A stretch of DNA of 21,005 nt from a virus, in IMG/VR virus record IMGVR_UViG_3300020401_000119, positions 1-21,005 of that record; one strand, 5' to 3'. This document shows, in pieces, positions 3,423-18,659 of the stretch. Under the pieces are notes generated by a model, which ran no database searches, was not told the DNA's origin, and worked only from the letters and a program-made list of their open reading frames with translations. Position 1 is the first letter of the stretch; each line of letters begins with the position of its first letter. The position numbers and the translations under genes were made by a program.

Positions 3423-5535
3423 CTACAGCGCCTTTTAATACTTCAGCCTGAGCCTTCATAACTTCACGATTGATCGCCAGATCTGATCTGATTTTTTCGA
3501 CGTTTAGCTGCGTTCCATACTTAGCCTTCATTTCTTCAGCCTTAACAAATAAATCAGCGTCAAGCTCATCTCGTTTACGATCATCATCCATCATCATTTT
3601 TTCGCGCTCTAAATTAAGCTCCGCCGCCTTTTTCTGAATGTCGGCCTGTATCTGCTGGATTTGAACGGCAATGAGTTGCTCTTGAATATCTGGCTTATCC
3701 TCTTCTGGAGGCGGTTGGAATTGTGCCGGGTCACTCCAGAATTGCGAGGTATCTTTAAACCCGGCAAGCTCTGTCATCGCCTTCAGTGTATTGGCAAGCT
3801 TATTAATGTCAGTCAGTGGGTTTACAGCGCCCATAGTCTGCATTGCCTCTCTCTGCATCTCACCAATCTGTTTGAGCATCATCATACGCTCAGTGTCTGT
3901 GCCACGCCCAAGAGCGACACGGACAGACACGTCCATATTGCTATTCCAAGTACGGGGATCTATCGGGATAAAATCGTTAGTCAGCCGTACCATGCGCGGC
4001 GCGTCTTGGTGCGTGGTTAATAAGTGTAGAACAATTTTATATAGTTGCTTCATGCCAGTCTCGGCAAATATGCGCGCAATCAGCTCTATGTGTTGCTGTG
4101 CGGCGCTTACAGTGGCGTTAACGGCTGCCGCCGTCGAAGACTGCAAGGCTCCAGCGTCGAGCCCTGCTGAGGCTTTTGAGATGCCTGTACGGGCCTCTTT
4201 AAGCTCATCCATATACTTTAAGACCGGGAATGCCTGTTGACCGACAAATGGCATACTGAGCATTTGAACGGCTCCATTTTGCCTCTGGCGGATTATGGAT
4301 CCGACTTCGGTTGACATGGCGTCGTCTAAATTAACCATACCCTCAGTAATCGCCATGCGTGGGTGAATAGACATTGAGAGACTGTCTAGAGTATTACGCA
4401 TGATAGAAGATTTGATTTTCTGTATATCCATGACGGCGTCGGCGACACTCATACCGAAGAAATCGTGAGCCTCTGGATCCGGGCAGAATACAGCAAATGG
4501 AACGACTGAGCACGGCTCGTTCATAAGAACGATACTCTCGTCACCTACGGTGCAAACTTTTCTAAGCTCTGCTATACCATCGCCGTCATAATCGACTTTT
4601 ATGTAACTTTCGACATATAGCACTTTTTTCATTGCCTTGTCGTCACGGTCATGCATTTCACTAGTTAAAGATTTATTCCTAGTGTATCGCTCTATGTTGC
4701 TTTCCATGTCGTCGTAGTTGGCCCCGGCGTCTGATACTATGTCGTAATCGTATCCCATAGCGACGAGCTCGGAGACAGTCATAACCCGGCGGTGACCGAC
4801 ATATGACGCCTGATCCAATGACTTTGCTTCACGCGAAATTAGGAACTCCTCAGGTGGAACGGCCTCCATCTTAACTCTACCGTCCGGGTGAGTGTATGTA
4901 GCCCTCACTGAGTGCACCATTGGAGGCGGTAACATTTCACCCGTCATTGGATCCATCATGGGCTCACCGGCTGGCTCAGAGGCTAAGACTTGAACCTCAA
5001 CGTCATTATCTGACATGAGAGCTGCGAGAGCATTATCGTCTAGCCCGGTCCAGTCGTGTGTCTCAAATTTTGTCTGATCATCCCAGTAGCATTTTAGTAC
5101 GCCTACTTTACGAATTAGAGCATCTTTAAAGGCTGCGTGGATCTGTAAAAAACCGTCGTTGTCTCTATTGATAACGTACCGGGCATATTCCGTCGCTTGC
5201 TTTGCCGCCTCTATATCCTCAGCCGATTGTGGCGCGTATTCCACCGTATTCTCAGTAGAATTAAAAATACGCATCAGAGATGGCATAATGGCCTGTACGG
5301 TATCCCGGACATCCATACTTACAATTTGAGATCTGCCGGCCTCTTCATTACCGAAGGGATCTCCCCTGTAATATTCAGTGGCCGTGGCGCGCAGTGGAGA
5401 TACCCAGTTATCAACAAAATCAATTGCGTCTTCTATCTCTTTTCCTACGATACCTTTCAGCTCCTCATCGTCCATGATGTTAGGATCGAGTTCAGCTTCC
5501 AGCTCTTGCACGAGTTCGCTTATTTCATTTTCCAT
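3406..5535 (-). CDS. Portal protein (P22-like)
   Basis: A 709-aa protein, the expected size for a P22-type portal, which forms the dodecameric vertex through which DNA is packaged and ejected. Recognisable portal segments are DFVDNWVSPLRATATEYYRG near the N-terminus, IMPSLMRIFNSTENTVEYAP, VKMEAVPPEEFLISREAKSL, a region reading VYVESYIKVDYDGDGIAELRK with small differences, and PFAVFCPDPEAHDFFGMS with a following long helix MDIQKIKSSIMRNTLDSLSM. The C-terminal 100 residues (after about 600) are a long coiled coil, like the barrel helix of P22 gp1. I chose the ATG at 5535, not the ATG at 5553, because AGGAAGG sits about 8 nt before it and it directly follows the stop of the previous gene. Confidence 0.92.
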   Translation of the reverse strand: MENEISELVQELEAELDPNIMDDEELKGIVGKEIEDAIDFVDNWVSPLRATATEYYRGDPFGNEEAGRSQIVSMDVRDTVQAIMPSLMRIFNSTENTVEYAPQSAEDIEAAKQATEYARYVINRDNDGFLQIHAAFKDALIRKVGVLKCYWDDQTKFETHDWTGLDDNALAALMSDNDVEVQVLASEPAGEPMMDPMTGEMLPPPMVHSVRATYTHPDGRVKMEAVPPEEFLISREAKSLDQASYVGHRRVMTVSELVAMGYDYDIVSDAGANYDDMESNIERYTRNKSLTSEMHDRDDKAMKKVLYVESYIKVDYDGDGIAELRKVCTVGDESIVLMNEPCSVVPFAVFCPDPEAHDFFGMSVADAVMDIQKIKSSIMRNTLDSLSMSIHPRMAITEGMVNLDDAMSTEVGSIIRQRQNGAVQMLSMPFVGQQAFPVLKYMDELKEARTGISKASAGLDAGALQSSTAAAVNATVSAAQQHIELIARIFAETGMKQLYKIVLHLLTTHQDAPRMVRLTNDFIPIDPRTWNSNMDVSVRVALGRGTDTERMMMLKQIGEMQREAMQTMGAVNPLTDINKLANTLKAMTELAGFKDTSQFWSDPAQFQPPPEEDKPDIQEQLIAVQIQQIQADIQKKAAELNLEREKMMMDDDRKRDELDADLFVKAEEMKAKYGTQLNVEKIRSDLAINREVMKAQAEVLKGAVDDKEN

Positions 5536-9732: not shown

Positions 9733-10074
9733 ATGCCGTATAAAAGTAAAGAGCGGCGTAAGACTTACAACAGGTCTTACGGCATGAAGTGGTATCTCGA
9801 AAACAGAGAAAAAGTTTTGGAGAGTAATAAAAAGCACGTCCAGAGACACAGAGAAAAATGGTGGGAATTCAAATCAAAGTTGAGATGTGAAAAGTGCGGA
9901 TTTTCTCACCCGGCGGCTATCGACTTCCACCACCCAGAAGCAAAGGGCGATACAAAAGTAAGCCACTACGTCTCTCACAAACAGTGGAAGCGCGCGTATG
10001 AGGAGGCTGCAAAGTGCCAAATATTGTGTGCAAACTGTCATCGAGTTTTACACTACGAAGAAAAAAAATCGTAA
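9733..10074 (+). CDS. HNH endonuclease
   Basis: A 113-aa protein with a basic helical N-terminus (about 1-45, with repeated NREKVLE/HREKWW-type segments) and a compact zinc-supported HNH domain. Visible residues are the first cysteine pair CEKC (52-55), the DFHH motif with the catalytic His (64-67), a long linker, then the second pair in CQILCANCHR (C99, C102, with N101 and H103 of the HNH motif). The first-ligand knuckle and the CxNCHR end are typical of phage HNH nucleases. It could be a free-standing homing nuclease, or it could assist DNA packaging as HNH proteins near terminase genes do. It lies 3.4 kb from the large terminase and is divergent from the late operon. AGGAG sits 5 nt before the ATG. 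Confidence 0.88.
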   Translation: MPYKSKERRKTYNRSYGMKWYLENREKVLESNKKHVQRHREKWWEFKSKLRCEKCGFSHPAAIDFHHPEAKGDTKVSHYVSHKQWKRAYEEAAKCQILCANCHRVLHYEEKKS

Positions 10075-10112
10075 GTCATTGATTTCCCTGGATATTTAGT
10101 TGCATTATTAAC

Positions 10113-10140
10113 TTGATGTTAACAAAATAATAACTATATT
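10113..10140 (+). promoter_or_regulatory. Candidate promoter for the 163-aa gene
   Basis: TTGATG (10113-10118), a 16-nt spacer and TATATT (10135-10140) give a reasonable sigma70-type match, in an AT-rich 99-nt gap between two plus-strand genes. A start near 10147 would leave a short leader that contains the AAGGAG ribosome-binding site before the ATG at 10174. Confidence 0.45.
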
Positions 10141-10173
10141 AATAGGAGAAGTTAATTTTCAAGGAGATAAAAA

Positions 10174-10665
10174 ATGTTAGATCAAATTAATAATGCATTC
10201 GCAGAATTAGATCAAAAAATGCACGTTGCTGCTATTGAATTTACAAAAGAAAAGAAAGCAAACTTTCAAGAAGAGTATGATAAAAAGCAAAACGAATATC
10301 GTGATTTAATTTCTAAAGGAGAAATGAAAGGGGACCGTATTTATGGAGCTATGTATTATTGGACTGTGAACTATTACGGATCTAGAGCAATGATGAATTT
10401 AATTGATGGATGTGGTTTACAAGATGCTTTGGAAAATGTTGAAAAAAATGTCCAAGCAAAAATTGACCGACGTAATGCACAGATCATGAACGCATTAAGA
10501 AAAAAAGAAGTTACTGAAATTCCAGAGTTTAAATTAGTTGAATATTCAAACGGTGTGGAAGGCTTCTTCGACGTAGCTGGTCATAAAGTACACATCAGAA
10601 CAATCTTAGCTGGTGGTTACAATATTCAATGCCTACACGCTAGAACTTTAGTCAACATTAATTAA
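10174..10665 (+). CDS. AT-rich orphan phage protein, 163 aa
   Basis: I do not recognise a characterised family. The N-terminal half is helical and highly charged (residues 1-55, with ELDQKMHVAAIEFTKEKKAN). A middle segment, MYYWTVNYYGSRAMMNLIDG, is aromatic-rich. The C-terminal part (about 118-163) is a beta-rich domain with FKLVEYSNGVEGFFDVAG, HKVHIRTILAGGYNIQC and LHART. It has a strong ribosome-binding site (AAGGAG, 8-nt spacing), its own promoter-like element, and a GC hairpin after the stop, so it may be a monocistronic, well-expressed gene. Codons prefer A or T at third positions (AAA, GAA, TTA), unlike the GC-richer terminase and helicase genes, which suggests recent acquisition or early high expression. 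Confidence 0.75.
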   Translation: MLDQINNAFAELDQKMHVAAIEFTKEKKANFQEEYDKKQNEYRDLISKGEMKGDRIYGAMYYWTVNYYGSRAMMNLIDGCGLQDALENVEKNVQAKIDRRNAQIMNALRKKEVTEIPEFKLVEYSNGVEGFFDVAGHKVHIRTILAGGYNIQCLHARTLVNIN

Positions 10666-10671
10666 TCAACC

Positions 10672-10687
10672 GGGGGCGTAAGCCCCC
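10672..10687 (+). terminator. GC hairpin with GTAA tetraloop after the 163-aa gene
   Basis: GGGGGC-GTAA-GCCCCC forms a perfect 6-bp stem with a GNRA-type tetraloop, 6 nt past the stop codon. No T tract follows, so it is more likely an mRNA 3'-end stabiliser or RNase-processing barrier than a full intrinsic terminator. Confidence 0.5.
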
Positions 10688-10707
10688 ACAACCTACGGGA
10701 GAAAAAA

Positions 10708-10878
10708 ATGCAAGTAAAAAGTATAACATTAGCGAGGGAAGATATTAACAATCCTTTGCATCCGTTTCTATGGCAAGAAATTTGCGCGGACTTGGGCTTC
10801 GATGGTGGTAACAGAGATGGGGAAGACAACTGGCCTAACACTATTCACCTAACAGTGACTGAAGCGGAGGAGGTGTAA
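10708..10878 (+). CDS. 56-aa unknown protein
   Basis: An acidic 56-aa open frame starting MQVKSITLAREDINNPLHPF and ending HLTVTEAEEV. GGGAG lies 7 nt before the ATG, and the stop overlaps the next ATG (TAATG), so it is a convincing small gene. The FLWQEICADLGF segment followed by DGGNRDGEDNWP resembles a small alpha/beta fold, and I do not recognise it. It is the first of six genes joined by such junctions (10708-12550). Confidence 0.65.
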   Translation: MQVKSITLAREDINNPLHPFLWQEICADLGFDGGNRDGEDNWPNTIHLTVTEAEEV

Positions 10879-11123
10879 TGTTAAAAAATTGTCGAAAATT
10901 TCTAATGAAAGATCTGCCAATTGGAACTCCGTTTAAGACCAATATGGCTTCAAAAACTGTTTTTATGAAGTGTAATAAAAGAGTTGAGTATTTCGACGGG
11001 TGGTTAAAGACAGGTTACGAGTGCAAAAAAATTGCTGATCGTAACGGTAAAATCAAAAAGCCTAAGTGGGGTTACACATGGTCTGGTGACTTCCCAGTGT
11101 GGGCAGAAAAGGGAGAAGTGTAA
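10878..11123 (+). CDS. 81-aa unknown protein
   Basis: A basic 81-aa protein, MLKNCRKFLMKDLPIGTPFK through KPKWGYTWSGDFPVWAEKGE. The LPIGTPFKTxxxxKTVFMKC stretch suggests a small beta-barrel, and two lysine-rich loops follow. I know no function for it. It starts at a TAATG junction with GGAGG upstream, and its own stop overlaps the next ATG, so it is translated in coupling with its neighbours. Confidence 0.65.
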   Translation: MLKNCRKFLMKDLPIGTPFKTNMASKTVFMKCNKRVEYFDGWLKTGYECKKIADRNGKIKKPKWGYTWSGDFPVWAEKGEV

Positions 11124-11503
11124 TGCGTTTATATAATAGCAGCTATGGTCAATGGTTTGGAACACAGAGGGACGCCCAACGGGGCGCTCCTCGCGACTGG
11201 ACCGAGGTTGACGTGCCTACATCTAAGCAGGATCTCATCAACTGGTTAAACGCCAATAAAGTGGGATCAATGGCGGATGACAATTTAACTCGAGATCCTG
11301 ACGGCAATATTGTTGCGCCTTATGATCCTGATGCGCCGGTAGGTCTTTACGAGCCAGAGCTCCCCAGCTCTGACGATGTAAAGCTTGTCAAGAGCGCTGA
11401 GAGTTGGGTGCGGTGGTCACTGGATAAACTGATCATGGGCGAGAAGGATGAGGCAATCGAAATGTTAAAGCTTGGGCTAAAGGCTCAGAAGGGAGAAAAA
11501 TAA
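11123..11503 (+). CDS. 126-aa unknown phage protein
   Basis: The ATG at 11123 overlaps the previous stop (TAATG) and has GGGAG 7-8 nt upstream. An upstream GTG at 11099 in the same frame has no comparable site and would overlap the previous gene. The protein begins MRLYNSSYGQWFGTQRDAQR, then DWTEVDVPTSKQDLINWLNA, a pattern I have met in hypothetical phage proteins. Next comes an acidic, proline-rich stretch (DPDGNIVAPYDPDAPVGLYE), then a helical C-terminus (SWVRWSLDKLIMGEKDEAIE). No catalytic motif is visible. It directly precedes the metallopeptidase gene. Confidence 0.65.
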   Translation: MRLYNSSYGQWFGTQRDAQRGAPRDWTEVDVPTSKQDLINWLNANKVGSMADDNLTRDPDGNIVAPYDPDAPVGLYEPELPSSDDVKLVKSAESWVRWSLDKLIMGEKDEAIEMLKLGLKAQKGEK

Positions 11504-12141
11504 TGTCAGACAATCCATATAGCCTATCAAACCAAACAGAGTTTTTTCATAACATCATTACTGATGCATTGAATTACCTCGACGGTTACCGCTTTCAAAT
11601 GACTAAGGAGCAAAAGCAAAAAGCACACGACGTGCTAGTCGTTAAGGCTCCTAACAGGCGCAGCAATTGTAGCCGGGCTGGTTTTGATAGTATAATAATT
11701 TGCACGACTTACTGGCAAATTGAAAACGTCATCAGCGGCAAATCCCAAGGCGTCAAGGCCAGATTTAAAAAGCTGGGTTACGTCAAGCCGGGGCACTACT
11801 ACTGGAACGAGTATTGTCACTTTGATGCGGATCCTAAGTGCGGTGGTATGCACGTCAAAAAAGGCGACGTCGATCACGGTAACTTGATCCAAGTCTTGCA
11901 CGAGCTCTCACACTTTGTGCAGCACAATCTGTATCATAGTAACCCGGAATACTGGGGTAAGTATATGCGTAAGGCGCACGGTGAAGGCTTCAGAGATATT
12001 TACTCTATGCTTCGAGAGAAGTTTTGTAATGACCCGGTGGTTCGTAAAGTCTGCATCGCCCTATGGAGGGCCGGGTTTAAAGGTAACTTAAATTGGGACC
12101 AGCGTATGGCTGCCCAGAAAATTGCTAAGGAGGTAGCGTAA
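11503..12141 (+). CDS. SprT-like zinc metallopeptidase
   Basis: A 212-aa protein with a zinc-protease signature: HELSH at 133-137 (two zinc ligands and the general-base Glu) inside the helix NLIQVLHELSHFVQHN, and the third-ligand motif HGEGFRDIYSML beginning at His159. This arrangement, with the HGxxF turn about 22 residues after HExxH, is that of SprT/Spartan-like peptidases, which cut DNA-protein crosslinks in cells. No C-terminal zinc ribbon is present, but C105 and C113 flank the region before the active site. It starts at a TAATG junction. Role in the phage is unknown: clearing proteins from DNA before replication, or degrading a host factor. The metallopeptidase call is firm and the subfamily is less so. 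Confidence 0.82.
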   Translation: MSDNPYSLSNQTEFFHNIITDALNYLDGYRFQMTKEQKQKAHDVLVVKAPNRRSNCSRAGFDSIIICTTYWQIENVISGKSQGVKARFKKLGYVKPGHYYWNEYCHFDADPKCGGMHVKKGDVDHGNLIQVLHELSHFVQHNLYHSNPEYWGKYMRKAHGEGFRDIYSMLREKFCNDPVVRKVCIALWRAGFKGNLNWDQRMAAQKIAKEVA

Positions 12142-12332
12142 TGAAAAAACAAGGCGGCATAAAAGGCCACACAAATGTGGTGGAGAGTTCTCTTGTCGCA
12201 GGATCTCAGCTCGGACATAGTTTCTCACTGTCCGGGCGAGGCCACGGGAGAAAGAATAGAGTTTTGGACGGCTCGACAAACAGAGCCGCAAGGCGCGCAG
12301 CGGCGGCGGATAAGCGTAAGGGAGTTAAGTAA
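12141..12332 (+). CDS. 63-aa basic protein
   Basis: A Ser/Gly/Arg-rich 63-aa protein, MKKQGGIKGHTNVVESSLVA, then HSFSLSGRGHGRKNR and a C-terminal helix NRAARRAAAADKRKGVK. It is probably intrinsically disordered, with a basic alanine-rich helix at the end. I know no family. AGGAGG about 6 nt before the ATG and the TAATG junction with the metallopeptidase support translation; its stop overlaps the next ATG in the same way. Confidence 0.6.
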   Translation: MKKQGGIKGHTNVVESSLVAGSQLGHSFSLSGRGHGRKNRVLDGSTNRAARRAAAADKRKGVK

Positions 12333-12550
12333 TGTATGCTCTATTTATTGACAACGGTGACGAGTGGGAGCTCGTCGCCAAAAATAAACTAAAACAAAAT
12401 TTGGAATTACATTTTTATTATGACTACAATGGATACACGCATCCAAAATACGAAAGATATTATGATAAAAATGATGGCAGGATTATCGAAACTGACGGGT
12501 CAGATAAAGAAATAAATGAGGCAATAAAAAAATTAAATAAAAAAAAATAA
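12332..12550 (+). CDS. 72-aa unknown protein
   Basis: A tyrosine-rich 72-aa protein, MYALFIDNGDEWELVAKNKL, then LELHFYYDYNGYTHPKYER and a lysine-rich end, EAIKKLNKKK. The beta-strand pattern with acidic residues looks like a small globular domain with a basic tail. It starts at a TAATG junction and ends the run of coupled genes. No function can be assigned. Confidence 0.6.
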   Translation: MYALFIDNGDEWELVAKNKLKQNLELHFYYDYNGYTHPKYERYYDKNDGRIIETDGSDKEINEAIKKLNKKK

Positions 12551-12565
12551 CGTCAACTAGTAAAT

Positions 12566-12594
12566 TTGCAAAATTTGTATGTTACAGTTAAAGT
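12566..12594 (+). promoter_or_regulatory. Possible promoter for the zinc-ribbon gene
   Basis: TTGCAA (12566-12571), a 17-nt spacer and TAAAGT (12589-12594) lie in the gap before the ATG at 12615. Each hexamer matches consensus at four of six positions. A start near 12601 would leave just room for the GGGAG ribosome-binding site. An alternative -10, TATACA at 12594-12599, would place the start too close to that site. Confidence 0.3.
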
Positions 12595-12614
12595 ATACAA
12601 CCGGGAGATTTGTA

Positions 12615-12995
12615 ATGGTAACAAGTAAAGCTAATAAACATTTCACGCCTATTAACGGTAATGCTGCGAGAGTAGTCTTATCGAAGGGCACTCACTTCAA
12701 GCCTAAAAAAGAATTAAAAAACGTCTACAAGGATCCGATATATTTTAGAAAAGCGGATCACACGGCGCTGGGCGACGAGAGAAAACTCTATAAAGAAATG
12801 GTTGGTAAAAAGAATGGACGCATAACCGTTCTGGGTAAAGATTTAAATACGAAGAAAAATTGCAACGGTAGTATGTGGGTATGCAAATGCGCGTGCGGAA
12901 ATTTTTTGCTGCTTAGATCTAAAAAAATTAAAAAGGGGATAATGCAGGATAGATGCAACGAGTGCCTGTACATACAGGAGTTGAGAAACAGATAA
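12615..12995 (+). CDS. Zinc-ribbon phage protein, 126 aa
   Basis: The ATG at 12615 follows GGGAG with 7-nt spacing; an earlier in-frame ATG at 12579 falls within the promoter-like sequence and lacks such a site. The C-terminal third carries a zinc ribbon: GRITVLGKDL leads to SMWVCKCACGNFLLLRSKKI with Cys at 90, 92 and 94, and RCNEC with Cys at 114 and 117. The pattern W-x-C-x-C-x-C-G with a second CxxC about 20 residues later is common in phage proteins that accompany HNH or AP2-type DNA-binding domains. The N-terminal 60 residues are basic and have no recognised fold. A DNA- or RNA-binding role is likely. It is the last gene of the plus-strand island. Confidence 0.7.
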   Translation: MVTSKANKHFTPINGNAARVVLSKGTHFKPKKELKNVYKDPIYFRKADHTALGDERKLYKEMVGKKNGRITVLGKDLNTKKNCNGSMWVCKCACGNFLLLRSKKIKKGIMQDRCNECLYIQELRNR

Positions 12996-15471: not shown

Positions 15472-16083
15472 TTACCACGGTATCTCATCCCCTATTGACC
15501 AGTCGATTGATTTATCAATTCCATCCCTAATTACGGTTGTTATTTTTGCCTTAGGAAAACTATCGTAAGCCTCCTCTAAAAACTTAGCCGTAAAATCATT
15601 AGATAATATTCTAGCAACATCCTCGAAACTGTAAACTATCCAGTCTTTATACTTCTCACGTAATATGTGAGCATTCCTAGACGCAATACAAACGATCCTG
15701 CCACCCTCGAGCTCGACGCAATAGCAATCCTCAGCCGGAGGCTTATGCCCGGCCTCAATTGCAGTCTTTTCTAGAACGTCCCACGCTCTCATAAGTTGAC
15801 CAGCAATTTGATTAGTCGCCATTACATCGTTAGCCTCGACGGCGTAACCTAGCGCCTCGTAAGCAGCTTCAAAACGGCCAGCCATTTCTGGCGGCACAAA
15901 CGTAGGCAATGTATCACCCCATTTATCAACTTTCTCCCGGGCAATACGATCCAGCGGTTTAAGTTGTCCAATGACTTCTGCTTTAATAGGGATATCCTCA
16001 CCAGTAGGTCTGCCAAGTACATCACGTCCCTTCCTTTCAGCTTCTGTTAAAGTTATACGTTTAGTTCTCTTTTTATTTACCAC
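15472..16083 (-). CDS. Unknown 203-aa protein, first gene after the repeat region
   Basis: I do not recognise this protein. It starts at a GTG (16083) preceded by GAGGAG with 9-nt spacing, and that ribosome-binding site is part of a CCTCAGT repeat read on the other strand. The N-terminus is basic (VNKKRTKRITLTEAERKGRD). The middle is helical, with EMAGRFEAAYEALGYAVEA, and the C-terminal half has DCYCVELEGGRIVCIAS and a helical IVYSFEDVARILSNDFTAK. The last residues are GDEIPW. It starts a block running through small to large terminase, so it could have a packaging-related or regulatory role. That is inference from position only. Confidence 0.65.
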   Translation of the reverse strand: MVNKKRTKRITLTEAERKGRDVLGRPTGEDIPIKAEVIGQLKPLDRIAREKVDKWGDTLPTFVPPEMAGRFEAAYEALGYAVEANDVMATNQIAGQLMRAWDVLEKTAIEAGHKPPAEDCYCVELEGGRIVCIASRNAHILREKYKDWIVYSFEDVARILSNDFTAKFLEEAYDSFPKAKITTVIRDGIDKSIDWSIGDEIPW

Positions 16084-16093
16084 GATACTATTC

Positions 16094-16241
16094 TCCTCAG
16101 TCGTTTTATATATCCGCCTTACTCCCTCCTCAGTTACGTATATATATACGTATAACTAAGGAGGAAGGTTTTTGCGGTGTATTCTCCTCAGTGTAAGCAC
16201 TCTTCCTCAGTCGCAATTTCGGACTGAGGAAACGCCTCAGT
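16094..16241. repeat. Cluster of seven CCTCAGT-type boxes (iteron-like)
   Basis: The motif TCCTCAGT occurs at 16094-16101, 16127-16134, 16185-16192 and 16204-16211; a variant GCCTCAGT is at 16234-16241. Reverse-orientation copies lie at 16223-16230 (exact) and 16155-16162 (one mismatch). Two of them form a perfect 10-bp inverted repeat, TTCCTCAGTC with GACTGAGGAA (16203-16231, 9-nt loop). Copies 1 and 4 share a 13-mer TATTCTCCTCAGT, and copies at 16186 and 16235 share CCTCAGTGTAA. Start-to-start spacings are 33, 28, 30, 19, 19 and 11 nt. It fills the non-coding region between the primase-helicase block and the terminase block: an origin or a multi-site operator. Confidence 0.75.
16135..16152. 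repeat. 18-nt AT palindrome TACGTATATATATACGTA
   Basis: A perfect palindrome within the CCTCAGT cluster, flanked by two inverted CCTCAGT boxes, so the whole 16127-16162 segment is an imperfect inverted repeat of about 36 nt. The central TATATATA would melt easily or extrude as a cruciform. This fits a DNA unwinding element or the binding site of a dimeric regulator. Confidence 0.75.
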
Positions 16242-16461
16242 GTAAAGTCGGAGCACTCCTCTCCACTTCTTGCAGTAGTAATCTGAAGTAAGTCAGATCT
16301 GCAATTCCATCGTCACACGCTCTCATCGCCTCGTGTCTGCTTTTGTTCACAAATATGTCGGCTGTCTTAGGGTTGCTATGGTTCCACTCGATCTCGTAGA
16401 TCTCAGTCTCCTTATCGTAGACAAGCCTAGCAATTATTTCCGGTTGTTTTGCTTCACTCAT
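16237..16461 (-). CDS. 74-aa unknown protein after the primase-helicase
   Basis: The ATG at 16461 overlaps the primase-helicase stop by 4 nt (ATGA), with AGGCAGGA upstream; a GTG at 16488 in the same frame would overlap more and lacks a better site. The protein, MSEAKQPEIIARLVYDKETE, continues IYEIEWNHSNPKTADIFVNK and ends in a helix ADLTYFRLLLQEVERSA. It looks like a small beta-hairpin plus helix, with no known family. Its last codons overlap the final CCTCAGT box. Confidence 0.65.
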   Translation of the reverse strand: MSEAKQPEIIARLVYDKETEIYEIEWNHSNPKTADIFVNKSRHEAMRACDDGIADLTYFRLLLQEVERSAPTLH

Positions 16462-18659
16462 AATCCTGCCTCTTCTCCTGTTATCCACACACCGACGCCG
16501 ACAACTGTAACGTCTCTACCCTGCCTTTTATCATAAACTGGCTCCAACCTCAAAACATCAGTCTCCAACCACTTCTTAACTATAGCACGAATTTTAGCTT
16601 TCTCGTGTTTCTTTTCCGTGTCCAAGTCTAAAACTTTTGCCACTGCATTTCCTACCCACATATTTGCCCGGATGTTTTCTCTGTACGGATCCTCATTTTC
16701 CAGCGCCTCACCGACTACTCGCTGTACCTTCATTGCGTCCTTGACTGTCACGCCATCGAACAAGTCAGGCATTTTAAACGCCACTGCCACGCCGACGTAC
16801 TCACCGTTAGGAAGCTGAACGCCCTCCATGCGCCTGTACACGGCCTTCTCCGCCGGCGGAGCCAAGTTAGCCTTGCCGTCGTCAACTCTGAATATCCCGA
16901 GGCTCTCCTGTTCACTTACACCCAATTTCAGCGCGTCCTCCTGACTTACTTTGTTAATAACTCTCGCAGCCCTCGCGGCTCCTATGAGTGACCCTGCACC
17001 CCGGACACTATCTACCGTTGCGTCATCGCCGTGCATTTTTCGTATATGGTGTGTCAATACGAAAGCGCAATCCGTCTTATCTGCAATCGCCCTGACGCTG
17101 GCTATCGCCGCATTCATTGCCACGTTATCATTTTCGTTGATTTGATTGGCGCCCACCCACGGATCCACAAAAACCATGCCAATATTATTTTGCTCTATCT
17201 TATCGGCCATGTAGTCTCTGAGCTCCTCGTCTACATCGAGCCCGTCCCGGGATTGTTTAGCAAATATAATCTTGAGATCTCTCCCGGCGTCGAGAAATAG
17301 TTTTCCCTTAACATCCTTTGCCTTGACGCCGTAGTGCATCATAGCAGCCGCCACCCGGCGCTGCATCTCCTCCAGCGGATCCTCGAGGTTAATGAGCCAC
17401 ACGTTGCACCTCTCGTGCACCATGTCCTCGATTAGAGACTGTCCCGTCGCAATCGACAGAGCCTCCACTGTCTGCATCGAAGTCTTACCAATGCCACCAG
17501 CCGATGCCAATACAGACACATTAGAGCGAATGTAGTGACGGCCATAGATCCAACGCCTCGCCGGGATCTTCGCCGGGTCAATGGGATCGTATGGCGTCGG
17601 CCACTGCCTCTCCGCCTCGATGATCTCCTGTTTCTCCTGCGCTACCGGCTTTGCCAGCGACAATGCCTCTCGAAGCTTGTCCTCGCCTACTTCCTGTAGG
17701 TAGTCGTTTGCATCGACGACGTTCTCGACGCCCAGCTCGTTGAACCTGACGACATACACAGACGTGCTACCGTCGCCACTGAGCACGTCAGCGCACTTGT
17801 CTACATCTAAGTCGGGATCGGCGCATATCGTAACGTCTGAGGCTCTAGGGACGTTGTATGACTGCATCCCGGCCTTACCAAATGTACACACGATAGCGGC
17901 CTCTACTTTATCTTTCGTAGCCTGATGTATTGACAGTGCATCCTCCGGGCCCTCAACCATAACGATTGCAGCCCCGTCGTGCTCATCACCAATACGCATA
18001 ACGTTCCCGGCTATTACACCCCGGCTATACTTACTAATACCATTGTGCTCACGCTTCTTGCCCTCAGGCGTCAATAACACGGCCTGTATGCCTTGCACGT
18101 CGCCCTCCGAATTGAACGCAGGAAAGATAATCGCTGGCCCGTCGTATATGTTAGGACTAAATCGCGCTATATTCGTTGCTGTAGACGCTCTCAGGCCCCG
18201 TGAGTTGAGGTATAATAGCGCCGGGCGTATTGCATCCTTATTATCCCGGGATATCGGTACAGCCCTCTCCCACGCCTCGTTAGCCTTTTTGATTTTATCT
18301 TTTCTCGTCTCCTGATCTCGCACCAGCATTTCCTTACTGGCTAGACGCCCGATCAATCTATCGAATTCCGATACTGTGTATGGTGTAGTATCTGAGTTTT
18401 CTAAAATTTTTGGATTTTCTCCGCCACGCTTAAAGCCGGATCCTATTGTGGCCTTAATCTCTAAGTCGTGCAAGCCGACTGATTTTGCAGCCGTGTGTAA
18501 TTCTATAATGGCTAAATCTATATTAGCCGGGGCCAAGTGTGCGTGCCTACCCAGCGCATACGCAGCCTTATTGAGTGTCTCGTTTCTACCGCCCTTTAAA
18601 GTCAGCGCAACATCGCTAACGGCGCTCTCCTTTACCTTTTGAAAGTATGCTTCAGACAT
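16458..18659 (-). CDS. Fused TOPRIM primase / RecA-like (RepA-type) helicase
   Basis: A 733-aa replication protein. The N-terminal 130 residues are helical and lack a zinc-finger CxxC motif. A TOPRIM domain follows (about 160-335): IFPAFNSEGDVQGIQAVLL (178-196), VEGPED (235-240, catalytic Glu236) and the DxD of CADPD (281-283). A RecA/RSF1010-RepA type helicase domain is next: Walker A SAGGIGKTS (386-394), a WLINLEDPLEEM strand, Walker B VFVDPW (496-501), THHIR (536-540) and VRGAGSLIGAARAARV. The C-terminal 120 residues are a helical, possibly winged-helix region. The protein should both unwind DNA and lay primers at the fork. The operon runs into it from the ssDNA-binding gene. The start ATG at 18659 has GGGAG about 7 nt upstream. 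Confidence 0.9.
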   Translation of the reverse strand: MSEAYFQKVKESAVSDVALTLKGGRNETLNKAAYALGRHAHLAPANIDLAIIELHTAAKSVGLHDLEIKATIGSGFKRGGENPKILENSDTTPYTVSEFDRLIGRLASKEMLVRDQETRKDKIKKANEAWERAVPISRDNKDAIRPALLYLNSRGLRASTATNIARFSPNIYDGPAIIFPAFNSEGDVQGIQAVLLTPEGKKREHNGISKYSRGVIAGNVMRIGDEHDGAAIVMVEGPEDALSIHQATKDKVEAAIVCTFGKAGMQSYNVPRASDVTICADPDLDVDKCADVLSGDGSTSVYVVRFNELGVENVVDANDYLQEVGEDKLREALSLAKPVAQEKQEIIEAERQWPTPYDPIDPAKIPARRWIYGRHYIRSNVSVLASAGGIGKTSMQTVEALSIATGQSLIEDMVHERCNVWLINLEDPLEEMQRRVAAAMMHYGVKAKDVKGKLFLDAGRDLKIIFAKQSRDGLDVDEELRDYMADKIEQNNIGMVFVDPWVGANQINENDNVAMNAAIASVRAIADKTDCAFVLTHHIRKMHGDDATVDSVRGAGSLIGAARAARVINKVSQEDALKLGVSEQESLGIFRVDDGKANLAPPAEKAVYRRMEGVQLPNGEYVGVAVAFKMPDLFDGVTVKDAMKVQRVVGEALENEDPYRENIRANMWVGNAVAKVLDLDTEKKHEKAKIRAIVKKWLETDVLRLEPVYDKRQGRDVTVVGVGVWITGEEAGL

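Follow-up and report, generated by a model that had tools for sequence, protein, structure and literature searches.

The analysed stretch of viral DNA (21,005 nt; the window) carries, all on the minus strand, genes for an exonuclease VIII-like protein, a 263-aa protein, a primase-helicase and an 83-aa protein, followed by an array of short repeated boxes and then by genes for a 203-aa protein, a DUF6378 protein and the terminases (Sf6-type small, then large), the small terminase gene lying ~900 bp downstream of the array (Table 1). A separate group of small plus-strand genes (9733–12995) lies between two minus-strand blocks, and GC skew flips there. DNA-level matching of the window to annotated phages returned no useful near match. 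The gene of Roseobacter phage CRP-811 in the place corresponding to that of the 263-aa protein is annotated as ssDNA-binding. The solved structure nearest to the AAA_25 core of the primase-helicase is RSF1010 RepA (1g8y; E 1.8e-9), and with this RepA/AAA_25 RecA-like core the enzyme falls within the RSF1010 RepA type; its last ~130 residues match no Pfam family. The 203-aa protein matched nothing in Pfam or PHROG, and its structure model (pLDDT 62, too low) was left uninterpreted. Its C-terminus, DEIPW (DDIPW or DEIPW in all aligned family-1 homologues), resembles the acidic tip of SSB.

Table 1 Features of the box array and neighbouring genes in the window
Feature	Position	Strand	Remarks
203-aa protein	15472..16083	-	after the array in both helicase families; function not assigned
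Predicted iteron-type origin, whole array	16084..16245	-	between 83-aa and 203-aa genes
13-nt direct repeat	16089 and 16180		TATTCTCCTCAGT
Box 1	16094..16101	-	ACTGAGGA; overlaps ribosome-binding region of 203-aa gene
AT-rich palindrome	16122..16167	.	inverted boxes on flanks; core TACGTATATATATACGTA at 16135-16152
Box 2	16127..16134	-	ACTGAGGA; flanks AT palindrome, paired with box 3
Box 3	16155..16162	+ (opposite orientation)	ACTAAGGA variant; flanks AT palindrome
Box 4	16185..16192	-	ACTGAGGA
Perfect 10-bp inverted repeat	16203-16212 / 16222-16231		
Box 5	16204..16211	-	ACTGAGGA; arm of 10-bp inverted repeat
Box 6	16223..16230	+ (opposite orientation)	second arm of 10-bp inverted repeat
Box 7	16234..16241	-	ACTGAGGC; altered or interrupted in some near relatives
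83-aa protein	16237..16488	-	between helicase and array
Primase-helicase, 733 aa	16458..18659	-	DUF7146 + Toprim_3 + AAA_25 (RepA-like) + unnamed C-terminal domain
C-terminal domain, residues 639-733	16461..16745	-	predicted winged helix, putative box reader
Predicted wing, residues 703-722	16494..16553	-	residues 708 and 713 track two variable box bases

The array comprises seven CCTCAGT-type boxes within 148 nt, five forward and two reverse, at spacings of 33, 28, 30, 19, 19 and 11 nt. All were found exactly where a sequence-only reading of the window had placed them, and the inverted repeat, direct repeat and AT-rich palindrome that it described were likewise located. Read along the genes, which lie on the minus strand, the box is ACTGAGGA, a correction to the sequence-only reading. 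In the scan for CCTCAGT-type boxes, box 3, the sole reverse copy besides that at 16223, is TCCTTAGT, and box 7 is GCCTCAGT. The open reading frames of the 83-aa and 203-aa proteins bound the array, its last box overlapping the stop of the former. CCTCAGT occurs eight times in the window (1.8 expected), six of them inside the array, and these six exact ACTGAGG/CCTCAGT copies form the largest cluster of any 7-mer in a 150-nt span, compared with at most four when the whole window was dinucleotide-shuffled 200 times. The spacing had also been described as near-helical, which did not hold up: there is no clean phase, with 2.7, 1.8 and 1.05 turns among the spacings. The AT-rich palindrome is probably an unwinding element. 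GC skew follows gene direction and has no turning point at the array, and neither it nor third-position skew has a consistent sign nearby.

Spelling and layout of the boxes in related phages

In ~100 viral contigs, and in the cultured Roseobacter phages CRP-811 and CRP-823, a RepA/AAA_25-type primase-helicase gene is closely followed by a box array. Spelling is nearly uniform inside one array and differs greatly between lineages. Loci with helicases of the window's family (family 1) came from scans of viral contigs with the 203-aa protein (18 loci) and with the helicase (79 loci). Their boxes read CTGAGGA in the group nearest to the window (A), GTGAGGA in nearly all boxes of group B, GTGGGGA in C, CTGCGGA in D, CTGTGGA in both E and G, and GTGCGGA in F. 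Two of the seven letters, the first and the fourth, vary between family-1 phages, through only about four independent changes; the fourth scarcely varies within one phage, and the first is mostly constant. As in iteron origins, several short repeats occupy one intergenic region beside an AT-rich segment, here the palindrome at mid-array, and, as in SaPIs, the array lies directly downstream of the helicase gene, with one 83-aa gene intervening in the window. The 83-aa protein is not needed for the array, because in other groups the gap between helicase and array is too short for it or holds other orfs. The palindromic AT core between inverted boxes is ACGTATATATATACGT or TTGCATATATATATGCAA, with small variants, and is kept, or swapped for TTGCATATATATATGCAA, while the flanking boxes change spelling.

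The sequence-only reading had linked an iteron origin to the adjacent helicase and had asked whether the boxes keep their number and phase as sequence drifts. The link is supported, and the conservation asked for is seen in relatives, where even the spelling drifts and box positions are held. The further clusters for which it advised a search did not appear, each of nine long related contigs, like the window, having one cluster of its own box. One contig (IMGVR 3300046169_000058) starts inside the array, probably owing to an assembly break at the repeat. A scan of bacterial genomes yielded one MAG contig only, with GGTGCGG boxes; contig L124, filed as an Opitutae MAG and probably a phage contig, has the same helicase, with GGTGCGG boxes around a CCCTTATAGGGG core (3470–3640).

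A search with the 203-aa protein led to CRP-811 and CRP-823, in which 11 copies of CTACAAA stand between a RepA-type helicase and the 203-aa homologue. This second helicase family shares ~22% identity with family 1, and arrays are downstream in both. Scanning with the CRP-811 helicase added 80 loci. In most of those examined an array of up to 13 copies of one spelling directly follows the helicase, while other 1-kb stretches of the same loci seldom held more than 3–4 repeats; some loci with this helicase have weaker arrays or none. Spellings include TCCTAAA, ACCCGAC, ATGTGAA, GTATAAA, GTATGAA, TGTAGAA, TAGGAAA, TCGGAAA, CGTACCA, CGTAACA and ATACCAA. The GTATAAA and TGTAGAA arrays of loci L147 and L156 match at all ten boxes in position (to within 1 bp) and orientation pattern, and other pairs of unrelated spellings (no common 7-mer) match at 6 to 10 boxes; randomised layouts gave at most six matching boxes across the tested pairs. 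Tandem boxes are most often 9–10 bp apart.

Two loci (L168, L172) carry two mixed spellings downstream of the helicase, TCCGACA and GTAGGAA (about five of each), possibly a change of specificity caught half way; in L167, a near relative, TCGGAAA occurs nine times. Arrays are weaker after the RepA-type helicases of Rhodoferax phage P26218 (seven copies of CTGCTAC) and Microcystis phage Mae-Yong1326-1 (five of GACTGGC), and none was found within the stretch examined of Rhizobium phage RHph_X2_26, which has a related helicase. In Manatee Spring podovirus ctfPj964 (L207, 4341–4542) ten GTGAGTA repeats lie ~700 bp after a RepA-like helicase, beyond an endonuclease V gene.

Joint change of boxes and helicase C-terminus

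Helicases of groups F and G are 96–100% identical over residues 1–640 and ~60% over the last 95, where 36 of their 38 fixed differences fall. At DNA level identity is 93–97% upstream and 85–97% in the downstream gene, and ~47–68%, apart from one 87% block, across the final ~300 nt of the helicase gene and on through the array. Between D (D1) and E, whose boxes differ by a C to T change, all eight fixed helicase differences lie at residues 693–717, and for A and B the count within the last 95 residues is 19 of 30. For B and C only one of four is in the C-terminus (in the wing), with no rise in the ratio of C-terminus to body differences. That ratio is 0.8–2.0 within one box type and reaches 24 (F/G), 3.6 (A/B) and 2.2–3.0 (D/E) across box types. 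Among helicases with bodies at least 93% identical, compared in pairs that are not independent of one another, C-termini are 93% identical where the boxes agree and 71% where they differ; for the downstream 203-aa protein of the same pairs the values are 93% and 92%. Partial rank correlation of box similarity with the C-terminus given the body was weak (0.15, 0.26), and with the body given the C-terminus no lower (0.21, 0.30), because most pairs have no box in common; pairs with matched bodies were used instead.

As the array adjoins the C-terminal codons, some exchange by linkage is to be expected, but linkage alone is argued against by the downstream gene, which is unchanged beyond the array. 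The pattern of differences suggests that the C-terminal domain of the helicase reads the boxes. It is scarcely probable that the 203-aa protein, rather than the helicase, binds them. In both families this protein does come after the array, and an initiator is often encoded beside its origin, but the 203-aa protein is 92–97% identical across the spelling change in the F/G and D/E pairs and its first 70 residues have little excess change (90% vs 93%); by these comparisons it is not the specificity reader. Nor would an RNA element account for the covariation, since pairing of boxes leaves the C-terminus of the helicase unexplained. Forward and reverse boxes are complementary, allowing box-box hairpins, and GAGGA resembles a ribosome-binding motif, but CTACAAA, ATGTGAA and CGTACCA, found at a common layout, are not Shine-Dalgarno-like, and an Rfam search matched no family; the probability of a role as RNA is negligible.

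In the structure model of residues 600–733 (pLDDT 75, moderate) a beta hairpin comes after three helices, as in a winged helix. Foldseek returned no match with E <0.001 for the C-terminal domain, and its profile gave nothing significant against PDB sequences. The best VIA match (Z 7.9, all matches being below Z 8) is to the winged helices of RECQ1/BLM, a resemblance of the model that may reflect common fold only. The C-terminal profiles of family 1 and family 2 gave no alignment when compared, so that their common descent is unsupported. Two residues of the predicted wing track the variable letters. The best predictor of the fourth box base is residue 713, where D occurs with C, Q with A or G, and H or A with T; at residue 708 the two first bases are fully separated, V or W occurring with C, and F or A with G. 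Because independent changes are few, this code is put forward as a hypothesis.

Probable origin function and alternative roles of the array

The array has a fixed layout, occurs once per genome, follows the helicase gene and changes together with the C-terminus of the helicase. These features argue strongly for a replication origin of iteron type, recognised by the C-terminal domain of the marine phage's own primase-helicase, and this is very probably what the array is. We infer that the C-terminal winged helix of the helicase encoded upstream would bind the boxes (ACTGAGGA in the window), setting several subunits, probably two rings, on the box groups either side of the AT-rich palindrome. 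The palindrome would then melt, the same protein would begin unwinding and priming, and replication would start at the array. It is speculation that the 9–10 bp spacing of tandem boxes suits neighbouring subunits of a ring.

The sequence-only reading had offered as an alternative a multi-operator that divides early from packaging genes; a repressor or activator would then bind the boxes. The 203-aa, DUF6378 and terminase genes do follow the array, whose box nearest the start overlaps the ribosome-binding region. However, a scan of 15900–16600 found no sigma-70-like promoter or terminator, there is a single cluster per genome, and it is the helicase itself, not a regulator, that changes along with the boxes. 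Little stands behind the operator proposal, which we consider very unlikely, although the helicase may incidentally repress the gene that follows.

That the small terminase binds the boxes as a packaging site (cos or pac) is likewise of very low probability. Repeated boxes in both orientations make up cosB of phage lambda, which the array recalls, and the gene for the Sf6-like small terminase is close by. Nevertheless, in the D/E and B/C comparisons (in F/G loci no counterpart of the window's small terminase was found) this protein is 88% and 94% identical between box types vs 89% and 93% within them, and the helicase C-terminus, unlike the small terminase, is less similar between the D and E box types than within. 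In CRP-811, moreover, the array stays by the helicase, with head and tail genes of another kind and distant terminase genes.

The origin reading can be widened, tentatively and at somewhat short of even odds, to a large group of tailed phages in which a winged helix of the helicase would read position-locked iterons. The letters would diversify and be swapped as modules quickly enough to give many mutually exclusive origin specificities, with changes that obey a readable wing code and that may stem from conflict between co-infecting phages or satellites. If the array is an origin, both origin and reading domain are predicted in cultured Roseobacter phages and in many marine phages that are uncultured. 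With so many natural changes of spelling on an unchanging layout, these phages would also form a ready data set for specificity change in winged helices, a question usually studied with artificial libraries, and they raise the question of why different origin spellings persist where helicase bodies are 98% identical.

Comparison with known systems

SaPI Rep is a helicase of the AAA+ type. The C-terminal domains of SaPI Rep and SCCmec Cch2 recognise iterons downstream of the genes for these helicases, and the isolated domain of Cch2 binds direct repeats downstream of its operon (PMC7581432). The array and helicase described here would share the working mode of SaPI Rep/ori, but combine a RecA-like AAA_25/RepA core and Toprim in one chain and belong to tailed phages. 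Judged from its AAA_25 type and its nearest solved structure, RSF1010 RepA, the helicase core of the window does not appear to be homologous to that of SaPI Rep. Cch2 is of a different helicase class, with few 5-nt iterons and a separate primase-polymerase. In the PLE satellites of Vibrio cholerae the DNA-binding domain of RepA changes in step with the iterons of the origin, the two forming a module that can be exchanged (PMC8263062). The putative reader domain and the iterons co-vary here as in PLE, the rest of the protein being constant, but the PLE domain is an N-terminal RepA_N, its three iterons are semi-palindromic and ~30 bp long, and it belongs to a satellite initiator and not to a phage helicase.

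Alpha of phage P4 has primase, helicase and a C-terminal winged-helix origin-binding domain in one chain and acts with short iterons; its helicase core differs, and it is absent, as is any homologue of its C-terminal domain, among the listed matches of the domain described here. The iterons of RSF1010 are bound by RepC, a protein distinct from RepA; the RepA-type core is shared, and the iteron-binding role here seems fused to the helicase tail. A 2022 paper states that no function had been described for the AAA_25 family (PMC8965321), and iterons and an origin go unmentioned in the 2025 paper on CRP-811 (PMC12629253). Targeted literature searches, with most subscription journals outside their scope, found no report of this arrangement. 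On the best reading of these comparisons, the system would work like SaPI Rep/ori, Cch2 and PLE RepA/ori, but is built on a RecA-type AAA_25 helicase core.
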